NCBI RefSeq assembly: GCF_004366735.1
Contig: NZ_SOQX01000004.1
Coordinates: 164,705 to 228,704, forward strand
DNA length: 64,000 nucleotides
Reading direction: 5' to 3'
Source: Thiohalophilus thiocyanatoxydans
GTDB taxonomy: Bacteria; Pseudomonadota; Gammaproteobacteria; UBA6429; Thiohalophilaceae
The translations under genes and the position numbers were made by a program. Under the pieces are notes generated by a model that ran no database searches, had not been told where the DNA came from, and was given only the letters and a program-made list of their open reading frames with translations. Every line of letters starts with the position of its first letter. The stretch's first letter is position 1. Shown piece by piece: positions 12,722-27,399 of this stretch.

Positions 12722-14016
12722 AGACACATCGGTAACAGAAAAGTCCAGGTATATGGGTAACACATTTTCTATGCTGAGGGCACCGACAAGGGAGGTGCCC
12801 CATGCCCTGGAGAACTGTGACACCGATGGACGAGAAACTGCTTTTTATTGCCGACTATCTGCGCGGGAATCAGAAGAACTTTACCCAGTTGTGCCGGTTG
12901 TACTGCATCAGCCGTAAGACGGGCTACAAGTGGGTCAGTCGTTATGAGCAGCAGGGGATGGACGGTCTCGACGAGCAGAGTCGTCGCCCCCGACAAAGCC
13001 CACTACGCACGCCCTATGCGATTCGCCAGGCCATTATCGAGCTGCGGACCGGTTCCCGTAGTCCACCGGGTGCCAAGAAGCTGCAAGCGATGCTGGTGAA
13101 ACGATTTCCCCATGAGACGCCGCCGTCTTTAACCACGATCTATACGATCCTGCATGAAGCCGATCTCGTCCGACCACGCAAAAAGCGGTCCCGGGTGATG
13201 CCTTATGCCCAGCCATTCTCGCCGGTGCAGGCGCCCAATGAACTGTGGAGCGTGGATTACAAGGGCCAGATGAAACTGGCCAATGGCCGCTGGTGTTACC
13301 CCCTGACGGTGATGGATCATGACAGTCGTTACCTGTTGGGCTGTCAGGGTCTGGAAGGCCCCACCTATGCGGCGACCCGTGATCAATTTATCCGCCTGTT
13401 CCGCGAATACGGCCTGCCACAACGGATCCGCAGTGATAACGGGACGCCGTTCGCCTCACGGGCCGCCGGCGGCCTGTCCCGGCTGTCGGTCTGGTGGGTG
13501 CGGCTGGGGATCCGTCCGGAACGGATCGAGCCGGGCAAGCCACAACAAAACGGGCGGCATGAACGCATGCATCGGACGTTGAAGCATGCCACCGCCAAAC
13601 CGCCAGCCCCGACTCTGGCGGTGCAGCAACGACGCTTTGATGAGTTTATCCATGACTACAACGTGAATCGCCCCCATGAAGCACTCGGTCAGCAACCGCC
13701 GGTGACACACTATCGCTCTTCCCCGCGAGAGTACCCGGCAAAACTGCCAGAACTGGACTATCCAGACTATTATCAACGTTATCAGGTGCGCAGTAGCGGG
13801 GTGATTTACAGCCATAGTGGGCAGATATATGTCTCTCATCTACTGCAAGGAGAGACAGTGGGCCTGGAGGAGGTGGATGATGGGGTTTTAGACGTCTACT
13901 ATGGCCCGATCCGATTAGGCTATATTGATTTACAGGACCAGCGAGGGAGAAGCTGTCCTTACTGGACACTCAAAGTGTAACCCATGTCCCTGGACAAAAG
14001 TGTTACCGATGTCCCT
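12722..14016 (+). mobile_element. IS481-family insertion sequence
   Basis: About 1.3 kb with one transposase gene between imperfect inverted ends of about 42 bp. Left end 12722-12763 reads AGACACATCGGTAACA, then GTCCAGG and ATGGGTAACAC. The right end, 13975-14016 in reverse complement, reads AGGGACATCGGTAACA, then GTCCAGG and ATGGGTTACAC. The transposase stop codon lies inside the right inverted repeat. The exact outer boundary and a target duplication could not be fixed by eye. It interrupts a hairpin-array element. Confidence 0.88.
12802..13980 (+). CDS. IS481-family transposase, apparently intact
   Basis: 392 residues. An N-terminal helix-turn-helix (about 18-60, LCRLYCISRKTGYKWVSRY) recognises the ends. 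A central RNase H-like integrase core carries the DDE triad: D152 in ELWSVDYKG, D212 in IRSDNGTPF and E254 in NGRHERMHRTLK. The C-terminus includes NRPHEALGQQPP, typical of the family. ATG 12802 has a strong ribosome site (GGGAGGTG, 4-5 nt away); MDEKLL at 12826 is an alternative. No frameshift or stop interrupts it, so the element could still be mobile. Confidence 0.94.
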   Translation: MPWRTVTPMDEKLLFIADYLRGNQKNFTQLCRLYCISRKTGYKWVSRYEQQGMDGLDEQSRRPRQSPLRTPYAIRQAIIELRTGSRSPPGAKKLQAMLVKRFPHETPPSLTTIYTILHEADLVRPRKKRSRVMPYAQPFSPVQAPNELWSVDYKGQMKLANGRWCYPLTVMDHDSRYLLGCQGLEGPTYAATRDQFIRLFREYGLPQRIRSDNGTPFASRAAGGLSRLSVWWVRLGIRPERIEPGKPQQNGRHERMHRTLKHATAKPPAPTLAVQQRRFDEFIHDYNVNRPHEALGQQPPVTHYRSSPREYPAKLPELDYPDYYQRYQVRSSGVIYSHSGQIYVSHLLQGETVGLEEVDDGVLDVYYGPIRLGYIDLQDQRGRSCPYWTLKV

Positions 14017-14212
14017 GACTCGTACACCCCGAAAGACGCCGCCGTTTCAGCCATTTCCAATGGCTGAAACGGTCCCCTGCGGTTCTCGCTCCAGTCGTGC
14101 TCGCCCGACGGCACGTCCCTGTGCCGTCGAGCGAGTGGCGGCATCCCTACCGCCACCCTCCGGGCTAATCCTCCTTCCACTGCGATGCTCAGCGGCGTCT
14201 AACGGGATCAAG
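14017..14212. repeat. Composite hairpin-array element, copy 2, right part (after the IS)
   Basis: It contains a 14-bp perfect stem with TCC loop (14042-14072, arms CCGTTTCAGCCATT and AATGGCTGAAACGG), CGACGGCAC-GTCCCT-GTGCCGTCG inside CTCGC/GCGAG (14100-14135), and GTGGCGG-CATCCCTA-CCGCCAC (14135-14156). It ends with a 59-nt tail (14154-14212) matching 11661-11719 at about 53 of 59 positions. No gene is visible from 14017 to the next start at 14358; the base composition turns AT-rich after about 14280. Confidence 0.7.
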
Positions 14213-14357
14213 GAGTTAGTAGTGAGGTTAGGGGAAACCCGTAGAAGCAGGTACGTGTCAAGGCTTGGAATGTGTGGAAATCGGGAGTAGGGTTGCTAGG
14301 ATTAGGGTTAATTAAAAACAAAATTTATTGGGTTAGGCGGGCGACGAGGAAATATAG

Positions 14358-14969
14358 ATGGATATTTTCACCAAATTCAACCGCAAAAGTATTGATGACA
14401 GACAAATTGATACTTTGATTGGGCTAAGTAAAGGGATGGTAGCAGATGGGAGGATCAATCAGGCCGAAGCGGAAGCACTGCTAAATTGGCTTATGCAAAG
14501 CAGGCAAGCCAGCAACAATCCGATTATCCTTAATTTGCTCGAAAAAGTAAGTACGATGCTTGAAGACGGGGTCCTGGATGACGAAGAGTCAGCAGAACTT
14601 TTTAGTATTTTGAGGAAGGTCAGCGGTGATTCATCAGAGATTGGTGAAGTGGCAAAGAGTACATCACTCCCGATCAATAAGCCGGATCCTGAAATTATAT
14701 TTGTGGGCATGTCGTTTATTTTTACTGGTACCTGTGCGTATGGGACAAGGAAGCAATGTCAGGAGGCTATAGAGTCTCTGGGCGGTATAAATGCAAAGAG
14801 TGTCACGAAATCTCTGAATTATTTGGTTCTTGGTACTTACGTAACAGACAGTTGGGTACATGAAAACTATGGTCGTAAAATTGAAAAAGCCATGAGGTAT
14901 CGAGATGATGGTGTTCCATTAGTAATAACAACAGAAGAGCATTGGATAAATTCAGGTAATTTGGGCTAA
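14358..14969 (+). CDS. BRCT-domain protein with a TerB-like helical N-terminus
   Basis: 203 residues. The C-terminal half (about 113-200) is a BRCT domain of the NAD-dependent DNA ligase type: FVGMSFIFTGTCAYGTRKQC, then AIESLGGINAKSVTKSLNYL, VLGTYVTDSWVHENYGRKIE and a late Trp. The N-terminal half (about 15-90) is helical with GLSKGMVADGRINQAEAEAL and LEDGVLDDEESAELFSIL, resembling the acidic repeats of TerB-like domains. No ligase or nuclease domain is attached. BRCT domains bind phosphoproteins or DNA ends, so a role in DNA damage or phage response is possible but not shown. Codon use is clearly more AT-rich than in the flanking housekeeping genes, suggesting transfer. Confidence 0.82.
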   Translation: MDIFTKFNRKSIDDRQIDTLIGLSKGMVADGRINQAEAEALLNWLMQSRQASNNPIILNLLEKVSTMLEDGVLDDEESAELFSILRKVSGDSSEIGEVAKSTSLPINKPDPEIIFVGMSFIFTGTCAYGTRKQCQEAIESLGGINAKSVTKSLNYLVLGTYVTDSWVHENYGRKIEKAMRYRDDGVPLVITTEEHWINSGNLG

Positions 14970-15283
14970 TTTAAAATAAACGAACTATAGAAGGATAGGC
15001 TCAGGTCCTGGCTTTTGCCTTTCAGCTAGAAAAAGGCAAGACCTAACTCCGGTATTTTTATTCTATAAGTATGGTTAAAATTAAACCTCTCCGATACCTT
15101 TTTGTCCAATGTTCGCTGAAAAATTATAATAAGGAAAAAATGGGGGCGCAGATCTTTCCAGTATTTTGACGAGGAAGCGTTCAGCGTAGATCTCGGTTTT
15201 ACTGTTTGATCATTTTGTAAATTGTAAGTTGTTTATTTGTATATAGAACTAAAAATATTTTTATGGCGTAAGCGGAGGCCTGT
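14970..15283. other. AT-rich intergenic stretch with one possible hairpin
   Basis: 314 bp without a credible gene. TTGCCTTT (15015-15022) pairs with AAAGGCAA (15032-15039), and GGTC (15004-15007) with GACC (15040-15043), leaving a 7-nt internal bulge. This could end the BRCT-gene transcript. The remainder is AT-rich and likely contains the promoter of the lipoprotein gene, but no clean -35/-10 pair was found. Confidence 0.4.
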
Positions 15284-15565
15284 ATGAGATTGTATGTTTT
15301 TTTTGTCGCGGTTCTTCTGGTTGGTTGTGTATCATCTTCTGGTGTTGTTATGACGGGAAGCGATACTTACATGATATCACGTTCAGAGAAAGGATTTGAT
15401 ACCACTGGTGCGAGAGTTAAAGCCGACGCGATAAAAGAAGCTAACGAATATTGCACTTCAAAAGGAAAAGATATCGAGCTAGTGCACTCTGACAATCAGG
15501 ATATGAAGCCATTTAGGGCCGATGCGCAAGCAACAATAGAGTTTAAATGTATTGAGAAAGATTAA
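15284..15565 (+). CDS. Small lipoprotein of unknown function
   Basis: 93 residues. Lipobox LLVGC with C15 as the modified residue, after a short hydrophobic signal. The mature part reads TGSDTYMISRSEKGFDTTGA, then KADAIKEANEYCTSKGKDIE and ends ATIEFKC. Two further Cys could form a disulfide. I recall similar small lipoproteins in other proteobacteria with a Gly-x-Asp-Thr-Tyr start and an A-x-x-EAN-x-YC core, all uncharacterised. GGAGG lies 6 nt before the ATG. AT-rich, like its neighbours. Confidence 0.75.
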   Translation: MRLYVFFVAVLLVGCVSSSGVVMTGSDTYMISRSEKGFDTTGARVKADAIKEANEYCTSKGKDIELVHSDNQDMKPFRADAQATIEFKCIEKD

Positions 15566-15635
15566 CGTGTAATGGGTAGTGGCCCTTTCCAGTACGACGA
15601 ATATCGAGCTGATTTTCAATAAGGAATTCGAACGA

Positions 15636-16238
15636 ATGTGGGAAAATTTGTTGTCTGCTCTGGGTGGCGCGATTATTGGTGGCGGAATTGCGGGGTTTTT
15701 CTCTCTTAAATCTACCAATAAGGCCCACGAAAACGCAGTTGCCCTTGAAGAGAAAAAACAGTTGGAATTGATGAGTGGCCTGCTACAGGGTCTACATGAC
15801 GAACTCGAAACACTCTGGGACACCTATTCAGATGGAGTTGGGGTCCAACTTGAGGCTCTGGGCGAGGATAAACCACTTTTGATGTACTACCCGGTTACAC
15901 AGGAATACTTTCCGATTTATATGGGAAATTCGTTCTTGATTGGAAGAATCGAGGATACAGATCTTCGAAAGAAGATCGTCACTACTTACACAAAGGCACG
16001 TGGACTTATCGACTCGTATCGCTTAAATAACGATATGGTTAAAAAATTTGAGCATTGGCAGTCTATGTATAGGCAAACCGGTCAAGGCGTGTTCAACGAG
16101 CATGCGGAGGATTATTACGGTCGTCTATCTAAGTATGCCAAAAAAATCAAGAAGTCCCACGATGAGCTTAAGGCTAGCAAGGCCGAAGTTCTTAGGGCTC
16201 TCCAGAAGACGGGCGTGCTAGTTGGAAATAATTCCTGA
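15636..16238 (+). CDS. Membrane-anchored hypothetical protein
   Basis: 200 residues from ATG 15636, which has AAGGA 10 nt upstream; an in-frame GTG at 15579 has no such site. One N-terminal membrane segment (about residues 4-25, LLSALGGAIIGGGIAGFFSL) is followed by a charged, mostly helical cytoplasmic or periplasmic part of about 170 residues with coiled-coil character (KAHENAVALEEKKQLELMSG and a Lys/Glu-rich C-terminal helix). I do not recognise a family. It lies among unrelated AT-rich genes, 70 bp after the small lipoprotein gene. Confidence 0.7.
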   Translation: MWENLLSALGGAIIGGGIAGFFSLKSTNKAHENAVALEEKKQLELMSGLLQGLHDELETLWDTYSDGVGVQLEALGEDKPLLMYYPVTQEYFPIYMGNSFLIGRIEDTDLRKKIVTTYTKARGLIDSYRLNNDMVKKFEHWQSMYRQTGQGVFNEHAEDYYGRLSKYAKKIKKSHDELKASKAEVLRALQKTGVLVGNNS

Positions 16239-18085: not shown

Positions 18086-19042
18086 ATGGGTGAAGCACTA
18101 CAAACTGCCGTTGCCAGCCAGCGTATGTTGCTGCGCAGCCGTCTGTCCGGGCGGCTGGATCATCTGGCGGACGCCTGTCGGGCGGTGTGGCCGGATCGCG
18201 ATCAACTGGAAGCGTGCCTGGTCAAAGGCTACGAAGAGCTGCCCTACTGCAAATACCTCTACATCCTGGATGAGCGGGCCCGGCAGATCACCGCCAATGT
18301 CTCCTACGATGGGCTGCTGCCGGAGAGTTTCGGGCGGGATCGCCGCGAGCGGCCGTACATGGCCGCCGCGCTCAATGGCGAGGTGTTCTCCCTGTCCGAA
18401 GCCTATATCAGCCGCAATGCGCGGCGCCCGTCACTCACCGCCGTGCAGCGTATTCTGGACGGTGAGGGGCACCTGCTGGGCTACCTGGGGGCGGATTTCG
18501 ATTTGCGGGAGCTGCCCCTGACGCGGCAGGTCTATAAAGAGCCGGAGCAGTGGATGCAGATCAAGGGTGATCCGGCGATCCGGGGCGGGCTGTTTCTGCA
18601 GGAGCGTACCGAAAGCTTGATGGACCGGCGTATCGATGAGGTGCTGCCGCTGGTGACTGAGCTGGTGGAGGTCCACGGGGTGTTCCATGCCAAGCTGCAC
18701 TTCTCCAGCTCCCGGGCCACGCTGTGGTTGATCGAGGATCCCTTCCGCTACCGTATCCTGGATATCGAGGACCTCACCGATCCGGCGATCTGCCTGGCCT
18801 GGTCGCAGCACAGCTACTCGGACGAGGCAGTGATTCCGGCGGAGCGCGTGAAGGAGGTGTTCCGCACGTTTCGTGATTTACGTTTCATGGATGAAAACAT
18901 CTACCTGCGCGCGGGCTCACTCAATATCTTCAATGGCATGGTGGGTCTGAATTTCTCCTGTGACGGGTCCCATTACATGCCGTGGTTGGAGTTTCTGGAC
19001 AAGAATATCGGTTTCTGGCTCGGGTCAGATAATCCATTGTAA
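18086..19042 (+). CDS. Stand-alone PDC/Cache-type sensor domain protein
   Basis: 318 residues, GC-rich. Residues about 50-150 have the PDC (Cache) sensor pattern: YLYILDERARQITANVSYDG, then FGRDRRERPYMAAALNGEVF, SLSEAYISRNARRPSLTAVQ and GHLLGYLGADFDLREL. Cache domains usually sit outside the membrane in chemoreceptors and kinases, yet no signal peptide, membrane helix or output domain is present. The C-terminal half (about 190-315) is not recognised. It may sense a small ligand in the cytoplasm or have lost its membrane and output parts. The start at 18086 lacks an obvious ribosome site. Confidence 0.72.
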   Translation: MGEALQTAVASQRMLLRSRLSGRLDHLADACRAVWPDRDQLEACLVKGYEELPYCKYLYILDERARQITANVSYDGLLPESFGRDRRERPYMAAALNGEVFSLSEAYISRNARRPSLTAVQRILDGEGHLLGYLGADFDLRELPLTRQVYKEPEQWMQIKGDPAIRGGLFLQERTESLMDRRIDEVLPLVTELVEVHGVFHAKLHFSSSRATLWLIEDPFRYRILDIEDLTDPAICLAWSQHSYSDEAVIPAERVKEVFRTFRDLRFMDENIYLRAGSLNIFNGMVGLNFSCDGSHYMPWLEFLDKNIGFWLGSDNPL

Positions 19043-19151
19043 ACAGGGGCAATAAAATAAGATAAAAGGCGTTAACAACGGGCTCGGCACTGCGCAAATG
19101 CTTGGCTGAAAAAAATTCGTGGACAGTGTCATTATTCCCACCACAATCCTG

Positions 19152-19226
19152 AACTGCCAACTGCCAACTGCCAACTGCCAACTGCCAACTGCCAACTGCC
19201 AACTGCCAACTGCCAACTGCCAACTG
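19152..19226. repeat. Heptanucleotide tandem repeat (AACTGCC), about 10.7 copies
   Basis: Ten perfect copies of AACTGCC from 19152 to 19221 followed by a partial AACTG. The unit is seven bases, so every reading frame gives a seven-residue repeat, which creates spurious open frames on both strands. It lies in the 246-bp gap between the PDC protein and the RibD-C-like gene. Such arrays are prone to slippage and may vary between strains. Confidence 0.97.
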
Positions 19227-21523: not shown

Positions 21524-21850
21524 TCAGTCGCTGAATTTTACCAGCCGGGTCACCTGAATATCGGAGATAAACACCACCCCCGAATGTTCGTTGTAGAAGG
21601 GCGATAGCCCTTCGAGTATCGGCTTGACCCGTTCCTCGGGCACCGCGGCGATGATCATGATCAGCACATCATCCTCGTTGAACATGAGGTGGCCTTCATG
21701 AAAGCCGTGGCTGCCTTTGCCGGAGAGATTGTTGATAATGGTGTACCCCTTGACGCCGGCCCGATCCAGCACGTCGGTGGCAAAGCTCTGGTGTTCGCCC
21801 CCCAGGATGATCTCGAGTTTTTTCAGCGGACTGAAGTTCAGGTTTTTCAT
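21524..21850 (-). CDS. PII-like protein of the dab operon
   Basis: 108 residues with the alternating strand and helix pattern of the PII fold: KKLEIILGGEHQSFATDVLD, RAGVKGYTIINNLSGKGSHG, then VLIMIIAAVPEERVKPILEG and a C-terminal VVFISDIQVTRLVKF. The region corresponding to the T-loop is short (SGKGSHGFHEGHLM), unlike canonical GlnB/GlnK. PII-like proteins beside bicarbonate transporters (for example SbtB or CPII types) bind adenine nucleotides and gate transport. The start overlaps the dabA stop by 4 nt, so it is the last gene of the operon. A role as regulator of DabAB is inference from context. Confidence 0.82.
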   Translation of the reverse strand: MKNLNFSPLKKLEIILGGEHQSFATDVLDRAGVKGYTIINNLSGKGSHGFHEGHLMFNEDDVLIMIIAAVPEERVKPILEGLSPFYNEHSGVVFISDIQVTRLVKFSD

Positions 21851-24800
21851 GATGCGGTGGACTCCGTGGGTTGTTCATCCGCCTGGCCGCCGGGTAACGG
21901 CCGGCTTTGCCAGGTGTTGTGGTCGTAGATATGTGCCGTGTTCTGTTCCGGGTCGATAATCAACAGCCGCACCCAGCCGTTACGCACCAGGTTTTTGACC
22001 GTGGCCACGTCCTCGATGGCCTGACGGGCATGTTCGTAGGGCGCCTCGATGACGGTGATCAAACGGATCGGTTGATGATAGGGGTGGCCCTGATCGAGTA
22101 CGGTCTGGGCCGGCAGGCCGGTGCGCAGATCGCTGAGGTTGCCGGTCATCACGCCGAAGCGCCCGGCCACGTTGTGATACACCTTGCTGCCGCTGCCAAA
22201 ACGTTCGTTATCCACGGTGGAAAAATAGTGTTCCATGTTGATCCACTGACCGACCACCAGCGGGCCGGTGAGAATATTCTCCAGCAGGCGCCGTTTGGGA
22301 TCGGCCCGGTAATCATAGGAATGCAAAAACGCACGGCCTGCCAGTGACAGGTGTTGCGTCATCTGTCGGCGGCCGATGATGAAATAGGCATTGCCGGACA
22401 GTCCCCATTCCGGACGCACCTGCGACCAGTCCATGGCGTTACGCCGGGCCTGGTGATTGGCTTCGGCCGGATCGCAGTTACCCGCTGTCAGTTGCAGTTC
22501 GGGGAGGCGTTCCTGGGCACACAGCCGCGAGGCACCGGTCAGGCCGCTGCGCAGGCGATCGAGATAGATCACGTGCGAGGATGGCAGCCGATCGAGATCG
22601 AACAGTTTGATCTCATCGGTGGTGGTGTCGTGCAGGGCCGGCAGGAACCAGGCATCGTCGGGGATGTCGATACCCTGGGCACGCAGCCGCTGACGAACCC
22701 GGGGCTGGTTGGCCATCTGGGCCAGCACGCGGGCATTGATCAGCCCGTGATTGCCGCCGCAGGCGCCGCAATCGAGCGCCGACTCATAGGGATTGTTATC
22801 GGAGGTGCTGCCGTGGCCGACCAGCAGGATGAAGCGGGAGAAATCCCGGTTCAGGCCAATCGAGTGCAGGGCCTGGCTGACAAAGTTGGTCTGTTCATCG
22901 AGACTGAAACCGATGCGTGCCAGCTGTTCCCTCTGCAGCTGCGCGAAGGCCGGCTCAATCCGGTAGACTGAACGCAGACGCTGGATAAACGCCTGTTCGG
23001 CTTCTTCCGTCAGGTTCAGCGTTCCACTCAGCGCCGGGGCCCGGGTGGCATGTCCCAGAGCGGCTTCACGCAGTTCGCGGACCATCTCGTCGGTCACCGC
23101 TTCGGGTTCCAGCTCGAACTCCTGTTCTATCGCCTTGCCCACAACGGCCCGCTGCACGGCGCGAACGATGGAGTCGGCCTGTTCGCGATCCAGCTTGTCG
23201 AGTAACAGATGGGTCGCGGGTTTGTCGCGGTACAGGCGCTGGCGCCAGCGGTTATAGCTTTGCGGCAGGAAAGTTTTGCCGAGCATGTCGAAGCCGAACA
23301 GCATGCCGATGGCCTCGACGGTGACGTATGGCGTGAAGACCGACTCTTTCAGCTCGTGCAGCACTTTTTCCAGCGCGGTGGTGGCGGCTACATCCGCCGG
23401 TGCCGTGGCCGTCATTTCCAGGACCAGGTTTTTCGGTTTGAGCAGCACCGGGCACAGATGGGTTTCACTGCCCTTGCCCAGTTCCATGAAGCTGATGGGC
23501 ACGCCGAAGAAACCGGCGATGCCGAAGGTCTGATAATCCCCCGCGCTTTCCAGATGCCGGCGAATCCGTTCGGAGCGGGTATCGATGCAGAACAGGGCCT
23601 GGGCAAAGGGGCGTTTGTCGCGCGGGACCGGCGGGGTCAGATTGATGTCCCGCAAAACCGTTTGCATGGCCTGGGCCTCCATCGCGCGCAGCCAGAGCAT
23701 GCCTTCGGCATCTTCGAACTGTTGCAGTACCGGCATCAGCGTGGCCAGTTGATCGGACGTCAGGACCTCGAGCGCGGCGTTCGCGTCGGCCCGGGTTGCC
23801 AGCTGGCACAGGTGGGCAGCCTGATCCTCGGCATCGTGTCGGCGCCGGGCGCGGACATAGTCGTCAAAGCATTGTTCAATGGCCTTCGCGCGTCCGCGGG
23901 CCAGGGTTTGCTCCACGCGTTGGGCGTAGGCGGGCAGTATCGCCCCGCTGTGTAACTCATGGCGCAGCCAGGTTTCCCGGGGCCGGGTTTGAATCAGGGT
24001 CTCCAGCGCGCTTCGATCGGTGGCAATCCGCTGGCGGCTGCGCTCGGCGAGCAGGGCGAGAGCCAGGGTCAGGCGGATCGCCAGAAAGTCGACCAGGTCG
24101 GCGGGATAGCGTTGACTCCAGTAATAATGTTTGGCGTTGGCCCGCCAGCGAATGAAGCCGGCCCAGCCGTGCAGGCGGGACAGCTCGCGGGAGAAACAAT
24201 CGACCCATTTGTCCTCCGGGATGCCCAGCTCGCTCATCACCGAGGCAATCACGCCTTCGGGGTGCGGTTCGTTTTCCAGAATCCGCTCGATATGCAGGCC
24301 GCGCATAAACAGCCGGGCGTTGCGCAGGGCCAGCTCGCGCCAGGCGCTGAACAGGCCCTGCTTGCGACCGGGCATATGCCAGACAGACTGGCCCTCGTCG
24401 AAGAAATCGAGACAGCTTTTGATCACCAGCTCATCCAGCTCGGCGCCGATCCCGGTGCCATAGAGCCGGTCCACCGCATCATATAACGGACAGGCATCCA
24501 GCAGAGTGTCATGCAGCATTGCCGTCAGGGTGTCCGGATCGACACGGGGTTCGGGTTGTTCCCTCCCGTGGATCGCGGCATGCACCTCCTTCGCGTCGGC
24601 CAACGATGTGCTCCGCATGATCGGTTGTTCGCCCCGGGTGAGCAATGTCATCAACCAGTGGGACAGATCGACGCCGGGAATTGCCGGCTGCTGTGCCACA
24701 AACTCATCGATTCCGGCGGCCAGCGCAGCCCGGTCGACCTTGCCCTGCGCCAGATAACGCTGGTATGCGTGCCGGGATAAAAAGCCCCGCCCATGAAACA

Positions 24801-24963
24801 GTTGCGCGCCGGTTGCCACGGCCTCGGGGAAGGGCAGATGTTCCAGGCCGTGCAGCGGGTTATGGTGAATGAACGCGCGCATCGGCCAGAAAAATGGAAT
24901 CGGTTCGCCGGCCACGTAGATCATGGTGCGAATTTTCAGTTGTTGTCCCAGTGGCAATGTCAT
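21847..24963 (-). CDS. dabA: DabA, inorganic-carbon transporter subunit (DUF2309)
   Basis: 1038 residues. Long soluble protein with a carbonic-anhydrase-like zinc site. Likely ligands and catalytic residues are C459 and D461 in ALFCIDTRSERIRRHL, H717 in VGHGSTSDNNPY and C732 in ALDCGACGGNHG. The 15-residue spacing between the last two matches what I recall for Halothiobacillus DabA (H524, C539), while the stretch between the two pairs is longer. With DabB it is thought to couple an ion gradient to one-way conversion of CO2 to bicarbonate at the inner membrane. The GTG/ATG context shows a 4-nt overlap with the upstream membrane gene, so the genes are translationally coupled. Confidence 0.94.
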   Translation of the reverse strand: MTLPLGQQLKIRTMIYVAGEPIPFFWPMRAFIHHNPLHGLEHLPFPEAVATGAQLFHGRGFLSRHAYQRYLAQGKVDRAALAAGIDEFVAQQPAIPGVDLSHWLMTLLTRGEQPIMRSTSLADAKEVHAAIHGREQPEPRVDPDTLTAMLHDTLLDACPLYDAVDRLYGTGIGAELDELVIKSCLDFFDEGQSVWHMPGRKQGLFSAWRELALRNARLFMRGLHIERILENEPHPEGVIASVMSELGIPEDKWVDCFSRELSRLHGWAGFIRWRANAKHYYWSQRYPADLVDFLAIRLTLALALLAERSRQRIATDRSALETLIQTRPRETWLRHELHSGAILPAYAQRVEQTLARGRAKAIEQCFDDYVRARRRHDAEDQAAHLCQLATRADANAALEVLTSDQLATLMPVLQQFEDAEGMLWLRAMEAQAMQTVLRDINLTPPVPRDKRPFAQALFCIDTRSERIRRHLESAGDYQTFGIAGFFGVPISFMELGKGSETHLCPVLLKPKNLVLEMTATAPADVAATTALEKVLHELKESVFTPYVTVEAIGMLFGFDMLGKTFLPQSYNRWRQRLYRDKPATHLLLDKLDREQADSIVRAVQRAVVGKAIEQEFELEPEAVTDEMVRELREAALGHATRAPALSGTLNLTEEAEQAFIQRLRSVYRIEPAFAQLQREQLARIGFSLDEQTNFVSQALHSIGLNRDFSRFILLVGHGSTSDNNPYESALDCGACGGNHGLINARVLAQMANQPRVRQRLRAQGIDIPDDAWFLPALHDTTTDEIKLFDLDRLPSSHVIYLDRLRSGLTGASRLCAQERLPELQLTAGNCDPAEANHQARRNAMDWSQVRPEWGLSGNAYFIIGRRQMTQHLSLAGRAFLHSYDYRADPKRRLLENILTGPLVVGQWINMEHYFSTVDNERFGSGSKVYHNVAGRFGVMTGNLSDLRTGLPAQTVLDQGHPYHQPIRLITVIEAPYEHARQAIEDVATVKNLVRNGWVRLLIIDPEQNTAHIYDHNTWQSRPLPGGQADEQPTESTAS

Positions 24964-25718
24964 AACAGGACTCCGAGACCGTACAGTCCGCTCGCCACCA
25001 GCAGGGTCAATGCCAGGGCATACGCCCCGGTGGCGAGGCGATTGAGATCGATCACCGCTTCATCGCCCGCCGGGCCGACGATGAATCCCTGCAACAGGCG
25101 CGCGCCCGCCCAGCTCCAGAGTAACCAGACGAGGGTGACGCCGACGGCCAGCAGTGGCATGAACGTGGCAGCCTGCATCACGGTGACGAGCATGATGAAA
25201 AACGTCGGGAACAGGGGGGTGGCGATAATCGCCAGCACCACCAGCACGAGTATCGCGCTGAAGCGGGGCAGCGATTCGGCCAGACCGCCGTACAGGCCGG
25301 TATAGGCGGCGCCAAAGCGGCGTGCCAGTCCCGCGCCGAGCAGTGTCAGCAGCACCAGGGGGGCACTGAAACCCAGCGCAAACAGATGCAGCTGTAACAT
25401 CGGCATATCACCCTGGCGCGCAATCCACAGCAGGGCCCAGGCCGAGGTGGCCAGAAAGCCGCTCCACTGTCCCACATCGCGCAGGGCCAGGGCGCGCAGG
25501 GCATACAGTGCGGCGGTGAACAGGGCCAGCGGAATGATCCAGCCGGGCACGGGACTGTCCAGCATCGGCAACAGGATCAGGCCGATCTGGGGCCAGAGCA
25601 ACAACAGCACGATGCGCAACAGGGTAGAGCGGCTTTTACCGAGCACAAAGTTAAAGCCCATGCTCAGCGGGAACAGCGGCAGGAACAGGCCGATCAGCAG
25701 ATAGGATCCGGTTGGCAT
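24960..25718 (-). CDS. Hydrophobic membrane protein of the dab operon, NuoM-like fragment
   Basis: 252 residues with about eight hydrophobic segments. The stretch GLYGGLAESLPRFSAILVLV followed by LAIIATPLFPTFF resembles the segment of NuoM/antiporter-type subunits that reads like GGLAxRxP...LASIGLPG in complex I. The N-terminal half of such subunits is missing and the usual lysine-bearing helices are not evident. It lies between dabB (1 bp gap) and dabA (4-nt overlap), so it is surely part of the transporter operon. Whether it is a third structural subunit is inference; I do not know a name for it. Confidence 0.78.
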   Translation of the reverse strand: MPTGSYLLIGLFLPLFPLSMGFNFVLGKSRSTLLRIVLLLLWPQIGLILLPMLDSPVPGWIIPLALFTAALYALRALALRDVGQWSGFLATSAWALLWIARQGDMPMLQLHLFALGFSAPLVLLTLLGAGLARRFGAAYTGLYGGLAESLPRFSAILVLVVLAIIATPLFPTFFIMLVTVMQAATFMPLLAVGVTLVWLLWSWAGARLLQGFIVGPAGDEAVIDLNRLATGAYALALTLLVASGLYGLGVLL

Positions 25719-25719
25719 C

Positions 25720-27399
25720 TTAAATCCACCTCAGCCAGAGATTGAGCCGTCCCGCGAAGGCCAGCAGGACCCGGCTGAATCGGGTATAGAGATCGGTGAG
25801 ATAAAACTCACGCGAGATCAACGCATAGAAGGACAGCCACAGCCGGCGACGGTACGGGCTTTTGTGATGACCGTTTTGTTCGCTGAAGCTGATGATGAGC
25901 CAGCCGAAAATGATCACCAGCGCAATCAATCCCATCAGCAGATCAAACCAGAACAGATCAAAGTCCGCCGCCGCGTAGATCTGTTCGCGAAACGCCGGAT
26001 CGGGATATAAAAACAGATCGAAGGCGTGACTGATTAACGTGTAGCCGAGTACGACCACGGCGAAAGAAAAGATACTCAGCGTAATCAGCCGACGCAGATT
26101 ACGGGTCTGCATCCGGTAAATGGTGAAGATCAGTTGCGCGCCGGTGATCCAGCCGAAGAACAGCAACACGATGGCGCTTTGTTTCTGGAAATAGTCTTCG
26201 GCGACCAGCCAGTGGGCGGCGACCAGGATCGCGATCGGCACTGCCAGGGTCATGGCGGCCATCAGCCGCCAGGGAACGCGCTGGCGTATCGGGCGGCGTT
26301 CGACTACGAAGGTGTACAGATCGTCCTTGGGCACGCCATCGTCGCCGCGCGCGGCGTGGATGACATTCCCGGCGCCCAGAAACAGGGTGCCCTTGAACAG
26401 GCCGTGGGCGATCAGATGATAAATGGCCAGGGAGAAGGCGCCGATACCGCACTCCATGATCATAAAACCCATCTGGCCCATCGTGGAGTAACCCAGCGAT
26501 TTTTTGATGTCGTTCTGGGTCAGCATCAATACCGAGCCGATGATCGCCGTGAACAGGCCGACGATAAACACCCAGTGCAGGATCTCCGAGCTGTGCACGA
26601 ACACCGGCGCAAAGCGGTTGATTAAAAACCCGCCGGCATTGACGATGCCGGCGTGCATCAGGGCCGAGACCGGTGTCGGTCCCGACATGCTGTAGGGCAG
26701 CCAGGTATGTAACAGAAACTGCGCCGAGCGGGCAAAGGCGGCCAGGGCGATCAGTCCCGCGACCACATCCATCAACGGCCAGCCGAGTACCTGATGGGGG
26801 CCCGGATCGGTGCTGATCTGTTCGAATATCGCCGGCAGCGAGCCGGTACCGTAGGCCTGGTAGAGCAACACCGCGGCAATCAGCAAGGGCAGATCGCCGA
26901 TGCGATAGGTGATCTTGGTCCAGAAGGCATAGCGATAGGCCGAAACATCCCGGGTATTCTGGCCGAGCAGAAAATAGAGCAGGACCCCGATCAGCTGCCA
27001 GGTGATGATCAGGGTGAGCAGATCGCCGGCGGTCACCATCAGCAGCAGCGTGGCGGTCATCAGATCGAGCAGCACGAAGAAGCGGCCATAACCGATTTCT
27101 TCGGCCATGTAACGCAGGGAATAGACATGCACGACCAGACTGATACCGGTGATGACCACGGCCATCAGGGTGCTCAGCGGATCGAGTAGCAGCAGCGCAC
27201 CGGAGCCGAACAGGCTGACGGTTTGCGGGCCGTGCCCGGCAATCACCATCCACAGGGCGGCGACGCAGAGGCCAAAGGTGAGTAGTGTCGCGATCACACT
27301 CAGGCGGGCGACGCGCCGGCCCATTTGCCGGCCCAGCAGGTGGGTCAGCAAGGCCGACAGGATCGGCACACCCGGTATCAGTAAAATGATCTGTTCCAT
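25720..27399 (-). CDS. dabB: DabB, NuoL-like membrane subunit of the inorganic-carbon transporter
   Basis: 559 residues, about 14-16 membrane helices, of the proton-conducting antiporter family (PF00361). Features include YMAEEIGYGRFFVLLDLMTA, WQLIGVLLYFLLGQ, FARSAQFLLHTWLPYSMSGP with TPVSALMHAGIVNAGGFLIN and LGYSTMGQMGFMIMECGIGA, all typical of NuoL/MrpA/DabB. It forms the membrane half of the DAB complex and probably carries H+ or Na+ to drive DabA. First gene of a minus-strand operon dabB - membrane protein - dabA - PII-like. The upstream leader may fold into a three-way junction (27446-27525). Confidence 0.92.
   Translation of the reverse strand: MEQIILLIPGVPILSALLTHLLGRQMGRRVARLSVIATLLTFGLCVAALWMVIAGHGPQTVSLFGSGALLLLDPLSTLMAVVITGISLVVHVYSLRYMAEEIGYGRFFVLLDLMTATLLLMVTAGDLLTLIITWQLIGVLLYFLLGQNTRDVSAYRYAFWTKITYRIGDLPLLIAAVLLYQAYGTGSLPAIFEQISTDPGPHQVLGWPLMDVVAGLIALAAFARSAQFLLHTWLPYSMSGPTPVSALMHAGIVNAGGFLINRFAPVFVHSSEILHWVFIVGLFTAIIGSVLMLTQNDIKKSLGYSTMGQMGFMIMECGIGAFSLAIYHLIAHGLFKGTLFLGAGNVIHAARGDDGVPKDDLYTFVVERRPIRQRVPWRLMAAMTLAVPIAILVAAHWLVAEDYFQKQSAIVLLFFGWITGAQLIFTIYRMQTRNLRRLITLSIFSFAVVVLGYTLISHAFDLFLYPDPAFREQIYAAADFDLFWFDLLMGLIALVIIFGWLIISFSEQNGHHKSPYRRRLWLSFYALISREFYLTDLYTRFSRVLLAFAGRLNLWLRWI

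Follow-up and report, generated by a model that had tools for sequence, protein, structure and literature searches.

Dissolved-inorganic-carbon accumulating (DAB) complexes, of which two types are known from Halothiobacillus neapolitanus, are the closest described systems to the four genes analysed here, which occupy positions 21524–27399 on the minus strand of a 64,000-nucleotide stretch of contig NZ_SOQX01000004.1 of Thiohalophilus thiocyanatoxydans (this whole stretch is called the window below). A structure of the two-subunit DAB2 has been reported, and DAB1 is described as a three-subunit complex of DabA1 (hneap_0907), DabB1 (hneap_0909) and a small membrane protein (hneap_0908) encoded between DabB1 and DabA1 (PMC13144422). 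The same genes had been listed as a NuoL gene followed by those of a putative transmembrane protein, a 1046-aa DUF2309 protein and a PII/SbtB homologue (PMC4633670), and the interstitial gene was assigned to the mrpA family, PF00361 (PMC7714395). In carbonic-anhydrase-free E. coli, dabAB1 plus the interstitial gene, without the seven other operon genes, rescues growth in air (PMC7714395), while "DabA1/B1" failed to rescue air growth of another E. coli mutant (PMC12859837). This contrast is only suggestive, because the available text does not state whether the latter construct held the interstitial gene, and strain, vector and tags differ. Three further papers (PMC10880623, PMC6458275, PMC8438413) concern DABs or carbon uptake in general.

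An original prediction, made from the nucleotide sequence of the window, took DAB systems to be described as DabB plus DabA alone and proposed that the four genes could form a regulated transporter variant. The first point is contradicted by the published three-subunit DAB1 (PMC13144422, PMC4633670, PMC7714395); as to the second, the genes do belong together, but the variant is not new, the DAB1 type having already been published. Going by sequence, the four genes very probably encode a predicted DAB1-type complex together with its own regulator gene. What our analysis adds is the NuoM-half fold of the interstitial protein, its lost proton glutamate, the placement of an extra block in DabA and the match of the PII-like protein to CPII by sequence.

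A complete DAB1-type operon

The four genes, the second of which we call X, are laid out as follows.

25720–27399, minus strand: dabB (DabB1 type), NuoL-like channel subunit, 559 aa (PF00361, E-value (E) 6e-52, and PF00662)
24960–25718, minus strand: X, putative third membrane subunit, 252 aa (model superimposed on the second, C-terminal half of NuoM; Pfam search to E 1 without a match)
21847–24963, minus strand: dabA (DabA1 type), beta-carbonic-anhydrase-like subunit, 1038 aa (PF10070, 7e-260; PDB 9rd0_A)
21524–21850, minus strand: gene of a putative CPII-type PII-like regulator, 108 aa (PF00543, 1e-21; PDB 5d4n)

All four reading frames are open at these coordinates, and the tight spacing noted in the original prediction is borne out: dabB and X are separated by a 1-base gap (25719), X and dabA overlap by 4 bases (24960–24963), and dabA and the PII-like gene overlap by another 4 (21847–21850). 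Upstream of dabB, a promoter scan returned one site, with 0.7 expected by chance. The order is that of H. neapolitanus DAB1 (Hneap_0907–0909 plus the PII homologue), which likewise has a long DabA1 (1046 aa). Further, the locus combines a PF10070 DabA carrying the zinc motifs, a PF00361 DabB carrying the channel residues, a membrane gene between dabB and dabA, and a DabA that falls inside a clade of long, X-associated sequences; it is not of the DAB2 type, which has two subunits only and a short DabA. The operon is a complete, ordinary DAB1-type operon, separate from the carboxysome genes of the host, and its type, with the extra membrane protein and the PII-like regulator, has been described before.

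Conservation of the gene order

The conservation of this order was surveyed in three sets of genomes. In a family-centred set of 58 genomes (own genome included, most from the family), DabA was found in 13 and X, at E 0.001, in 11. One of the latter, G041, has a weak X match (28%) and no DabA, and was set aside as a general antiporter match. The other ten all have dabB-X-dabA, with the PII-like gene next on the same contig in nine and, in G032, after the remainder of dabA on a second contig. Three genomes with DabA and no X (G008, G018 and G026) have a different cluster, in which a dabA of about 1100 aa lies beside antiporter genes (split over contigs in G018). Among named genomes, alignment of X found 37 loci, including those of Nitrococcus mobilis, Thioalkalivibrio, Nitrosomonas eutropha, a Halothiobacillus metagenome-assembled genome (MAG) and a Candidatus Tenderia MAG, the last carrying the closest X (68%). 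The order dabB-X-dabA is kept on one strand in all 37; the PII gene follows in 31, and the remaining six stop at a contig edge.

A class-wide survey was made by PF10070 irrespective of X, and every frame around each dabA was scored against profiles built for the four proteins. After exclusion of DabA sequences shorter than 300 aa or below 80 bits, 82 of 369 genomes yielded 98 DabA sequences. Of these, 36 are of DAB1 type (34 at intact loci, two cut by contig ends), defined by more than 1000 bits with a profile built from X-bearing loci, and 62, some of them gene pieces, are not; a gap in score, 1189 to 741, separates the two sets. X adjoins dabA in 34/34 intact DAB1-type loci and in 0/62 of the others. 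A PII-like gene lies nearby in 33 of the 34 and in both cut loci (35/36), again with 0/62 among the others, and as called it overlaps dabA by 4 nt in 19 of the 35. The only intact DAB1-type locus without it is L161 of G072, and in G176 it lies 915 bp from dabA. Both kinds of DabA occur in 14 genomes. Moreover, in a DabA tree built without gene-order data from 91 of the 98 sequences (cut ones and those under 680 aa being dropped), the 34 X-bearing sequences form one clade with support 100, requiring one change as compared with 27.6 in shuffles.

Because the order recurs in 34/34 intact loci class-wide and, as dabB-X-dabA, in 37/37 named-genome loci, it is beyond chance. The original prediction had proposed to look for a conserved dabB-X-dabA-PII order and named the absence of X beside dabA in other genomes as grounds against it; X is in fact conserved there, in 34/34 intact DAB1-type loci, with the PII-like gene in 33/34. 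In the pooled counts of 70, 72 and 74 given below, several named-genome loci belong to the same genomes as those carrying G handles, so that these counts hold duplicates.

X is the C-terminal half of a NuoM-type subunit by predicted fold

X had been likened to part of an antiporter subunit, and profile and structural comparisons agree. NCBIfam gave nothing above its cut-offs. A profile of ten X sequences matched residues 295–493 of NuoM from mycobacterial complex I (8e9g_M, E 4e-5), the sole other match being a designed protein (E 0.0026). A structure model of X (40 sequences) reached a mean predicted local distance difference test score (pLDDT) of 91.8, and its top Foldseek matches were M-type chains of complex I (best E 9e-8). 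With VIA-align, residues 1–252 of the model were superimposed on residues 223–487 of the E. coli NuoM chains 3rko_C and 9q8i_M (Z 25.2 and 24.4; root-mean-square deviation 2.4 over 249 aligned residues), and the highest-scoring match was bovine 7qsd_M (Z 29.2). By hhalign, X did not align significantly with E. coli NuoM on its own (probability 0.3, E 0.19), while comparison with ten DabA-linked NuoM-like proteins plus NuoM gave a probability of 91.8 (E 7e-7). On the basis of the model, then, X corresponds to a NuoM-type antiporter subunit reduced to its C-terminal half, from about transmembrane helix (TM) 7 to TM14. The available excerpts of PMC13144422, PMC4633670, PMC7714395 and PMC12859837 contain no mention that we found of X as such a half.

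X matches NuoM/ND4 of complex I and MrpD over their C-terminal half only and, unlike them, has neither the N-terminal half nor the glutamate of TM12; with no PF00361 match either, it is not a complete NuoM/MrpD subunit. The features concerned are the following.

25161–25268, minus strand: X residues 151–186, broken helix where NuoM has TM12 (profile alignment)
25191–25193, minus strand: X M176, position onto which the proton glutamate maps (aligned by profile with NuoM-like proteins whose genes lie upstream of a different dabA type)

The TM12 proton glutamate of NuoM is E407, which is present in the alignment; X has Met (28/40 sequences) or Leu (12/40) at the mapped position. Within its helices no acid, lysine or histidine is invariant among the 40 sequences, and the invariant arginines R35, R75 and R152 lie near helix ends. 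As it is devoid of the TM12 glutamate, X itself probably does not conduct protons, and we infer that it is a non-conducting membrane partner. That X should instead be an ion-conducting channel half, giving DAB1 a second proton or sodium path, is improbable: its predicted fold and the full-length NuoM-like subunits whose genes immediately precede a dabA of another type would fit this idea, but Met or Leu at the TM12 position in 40/40 sequences and the absence of any invariant acid, lysine or histidine in the helices speak against it.

Equally, X could be imagined as a functionless, decaying remnant of a lost antiporter subunit, being only half a subunit and diverging faster than the other three proteins (mean identity 0.44 over 33 loci, vs 0.59 for DabA, 0.62 for DabB and 0.78 for the PII-like protein, the most conserved). 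This we regard as very improbable, as X is kept open at 247–298 aa (longest-frame calls) in 34/34 loci and has 16 invariant columns across 40 sequences. A chance reading frame or pseudogene was likewise considered and is ruled out by conservation. A pattern scan of viral contigs returned 18 stretches, none related to X. The X profile matches 5 of the 62 non-DAB1 loci weakly (20–30 bits), by way of NuoM-like neighbours of dabA, and G026 at 27 bits; since these matches are weak, descent of X from such a subunit is a lead only.

An extra block in DabA after the membrane finger

DabA matches DabA2 of the solved H. neapolitanus DAB2 (PDB 9rd0_A, E 9.5e-104), with which the operon shares the DabA zinc ligands, the finger glutamate and the DabB channel residues.

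23575–23589, minus strand: DabA metal motif 1 (C459, D461, R463)
22768–22815, minus strand: DabA metal motif 2 (H717, C732)
23314–23316, minus strand: DabA E550, aligned counterpart of the membrane-finger Glu444 of DabA2
22912–23265, minus strand: DabA residues 567–684, segment containing a DAB1-specific insertion, about 90 residues long, that follows the finger (comparison of spans)

Both metal motifs are identical in 124/124 aligned DabA sequences, duplicate genomes included. The finger glutamate is E in 72/72 DAB1 sequences (with duplicates) and in 32 of 34 sequences of at most 1010 aa, one of which is a piece of another type; in 18 other long DabA sequences the position is unconserved. A role for X as a substitute for the finger was also considered, and is ruled out by the presence of this glutamate in all 72.

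The original prediction had pointed to the length of DabA and to an expanded stretch between its metal motifs, and this proved correct: the stretch measures 257–258 residues in all 31 DAB1 sequences measured (of the 34 from intact loci), compared with medians of 172 in 30 short DabA and 190 in 19 other long DabA. The gain does not lie before the finger, motif 1 and the glutamate being a median of 90 residues apart in DAB1 and 96.5 in short DabA. The span from E550 to H717 is 166 in 31/31 DAB1 sequences, as against medians of 75 (short) and 89 (other long). As judged from these alignments, the extra length is thus one block of about 90 residues placed after the membrane finger. The beginning of the block, 567–610, is well conserved (majority residue 0.745) and its end, 641–684, less so (0.581). 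DAB2-like loci of the survey have no X, no PII gene and no such block in DabA. The DabA1 sequences of L163–L165 are 1046–1047 aa long, and both of those with 1046 aa have their metal cysteine at position 462. The C462/D464 printed for H. neapolitanus DabA1 (PMC7714395) follow the same numbering and are the counterparts of C459/D461 here.

In DabB, the NuoL residues H254, K305, H334, H338 and K342 are kept as H249, K299, H328, H332 and K336 in 74/74 DAB1 sequences, a count that includes duplicates.

The PII-like protein is CPII by sequence

The fourth gene, noted in the original prediction as a PII-like gene with a short T-loop that ends the operon, belongs to PF00543, and its product matches PDB 5d4n (CPII) without gaps over residues 4–107 (E 3.4e-48). 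Judged by sequence, it is CPII, and given the gap-free match, its short loop is CPII's loop. Structures 5d4n and 5d4l are those of CPII from Thiomonas intermedia, a protein of the same 108-aa length. Thiomonas CPII binds bicarbonate and adenylates. Regulation of the pump by the PII-like protein is plausible, and CPII would be the regulator.

Proposed mechanism

By analogy with the solved DAB2, the pump is most likely a proton-driven, one-way carbonic anhydrase. DabB would pass protons down the membrane potential through its NuoL-like half channel, the DabA finger would complete the proton path, and the proton flow would switch on the buried zinc site of DabA, which would turn CO2 into bicarbonate in one direction only. 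X may pack against DabB and DabA and stabilise or tune the complex. The most likely role of CPII is to bind bicarbonate and adenylates and to adjust the pump, and either X or CPII could make contact with the DAB1-only insertion that follows the DabA finger. That X and CPII are members of the complex is something we infer, as are the direction of regulation and the contact sites.

Several observations weigh against this reading. DabB R224 takes the place of NuoL K229, with R in 69/74 DAB1 sequences and K in 23/25 DAB2-like sequences, so that proton coupling may differ from that of DAB2. In X, the mapping of proton residues covers the TM12 position only, not NuoM K234/K265, and the most frequent acid, lysine or histidine in a helix, an E at 132 near the end of helix 107–135, is found in 23/40 sequences. 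X diverges in step with DabB and DabA (correlation of pairwise identities, r 0.93 and 0.95), which fits the reading but would be expected for neighbouring genes from common descent alone. The model of the 1038-aa DabA is poor (pLDDT 70.9) and gave no Foldseek match in the PDB at E up to 0.001, a null result that is uninformative on the fold because the sequence search does match 9rd0_A. Finally, carboxysome queries found no match in the 64-kb window, and the PII gene is dispensable for complementation of E. coli by DAB1 (PMC7714395).

The functioning of DAB1 in E. coli without the PII gene is what a different role for CPII would lead one to expect, namely that its target is not the DAB pump but, for instance, a SulP-type transporter or factors of RuBisCO or the carboxysome, co-expression being the sole reason for its place in the operon. 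The host, in keeping with the main reading, has two RuBisCO large-subunit genes and, on contig C1, a carboxysome operon of cbbLS, csoS2, csoSCA, EutN/CcmL and bacterial microcompartment (BMC) shell genes, a ParA-type gene and a SulP-type transporter gene (PF00916); the last of these would suit the other role. The PII-like SbtB is reported to form a complex with the bicarbonate transporter SbtA, which would suit it as well. The window, however, lies on C4 and holds none of the carboxysome genes searched for, and among the 98 DabA sequences the PII-like gene is confined to the DAB1 type, with the 4-nt overlap with dabA in over half of the cases. We therefore consider another target for CPII unlikely and retain its action on the DAB1 pump as the preferred reading. 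In H. neapolitanus the DAB1 operon adjoins the carboxysome operon, unlike here. Among 70 DAB1 loci (duplicates included), 45 match one or more of the eight queries taken from carboxysome loci, and a RuBisCO or cso query matches in 30, within a few kilobases around the locus.

A bolder version of the pump model, offered tentatively and in our estimation doubtful as a whole, would make DAB1 a ligand-gated vectorial carbonic anhydrase, in which a proton-dead X and the DabA block form a gate run by CPII according to bicarbonate and adenylate levels. X would then derive from a full NuoM-like subunit like that upstream of dabA in another type, and the failure of one E. coli construct (PMC12859837) and success of the other (PMC7714395) would reflect a need for X.

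DAB pumps have already been placed in E. coli (PMC7714395, PMC12859837), and their use in chloroplasts is under discussion. DAB1 is often written DabA1/B1, yet the third gene is present in all 34 intact DAB1-type loci. Should X prove necessary, DAB1 constructs of two genes are incomplete, and if CPII gates the pump, omitting it removes a natural control. The solved structure, being that of DAB2, does not account for X, the DabA block or CPII of the other type.

Other DabA types and further observations

Loci L035, L036, L169, L170, L172, L179 and others carry another DabA type, of about 1050–1126 aa, among antiporter-like genes; in several, dabA is immediately preceded by a full-length NuoM-like gene and followed by a DabB-like one, and the finger glutamate position of this type is unconserved. 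At L123 (G061), a DabA of 950 aa scores in between (741 bits) and is accompanied by neither X nor PII; two PF00361 genes lie on its strand at a distance of some 2.4 kb or more, one of 483 aa and the other, truncated by the end of the stretch, of 635 aa. L182, L184, L186–L188 and L193–L196 form a deep clade of nine short DabA (688–795 aa), eight of them with a short DabB (443–472 aa) called nearby.

Elsewhere in the window, positions 14001–16000 have a G+C of 0.436, compared with 0.495 to 0.63 in the other 2-kb steps, possibly an acquired stretch. At 18930–19223, a minus-strand frame starts with VGSWQLA repeats, which correspond to a short tandem DNA repeat.

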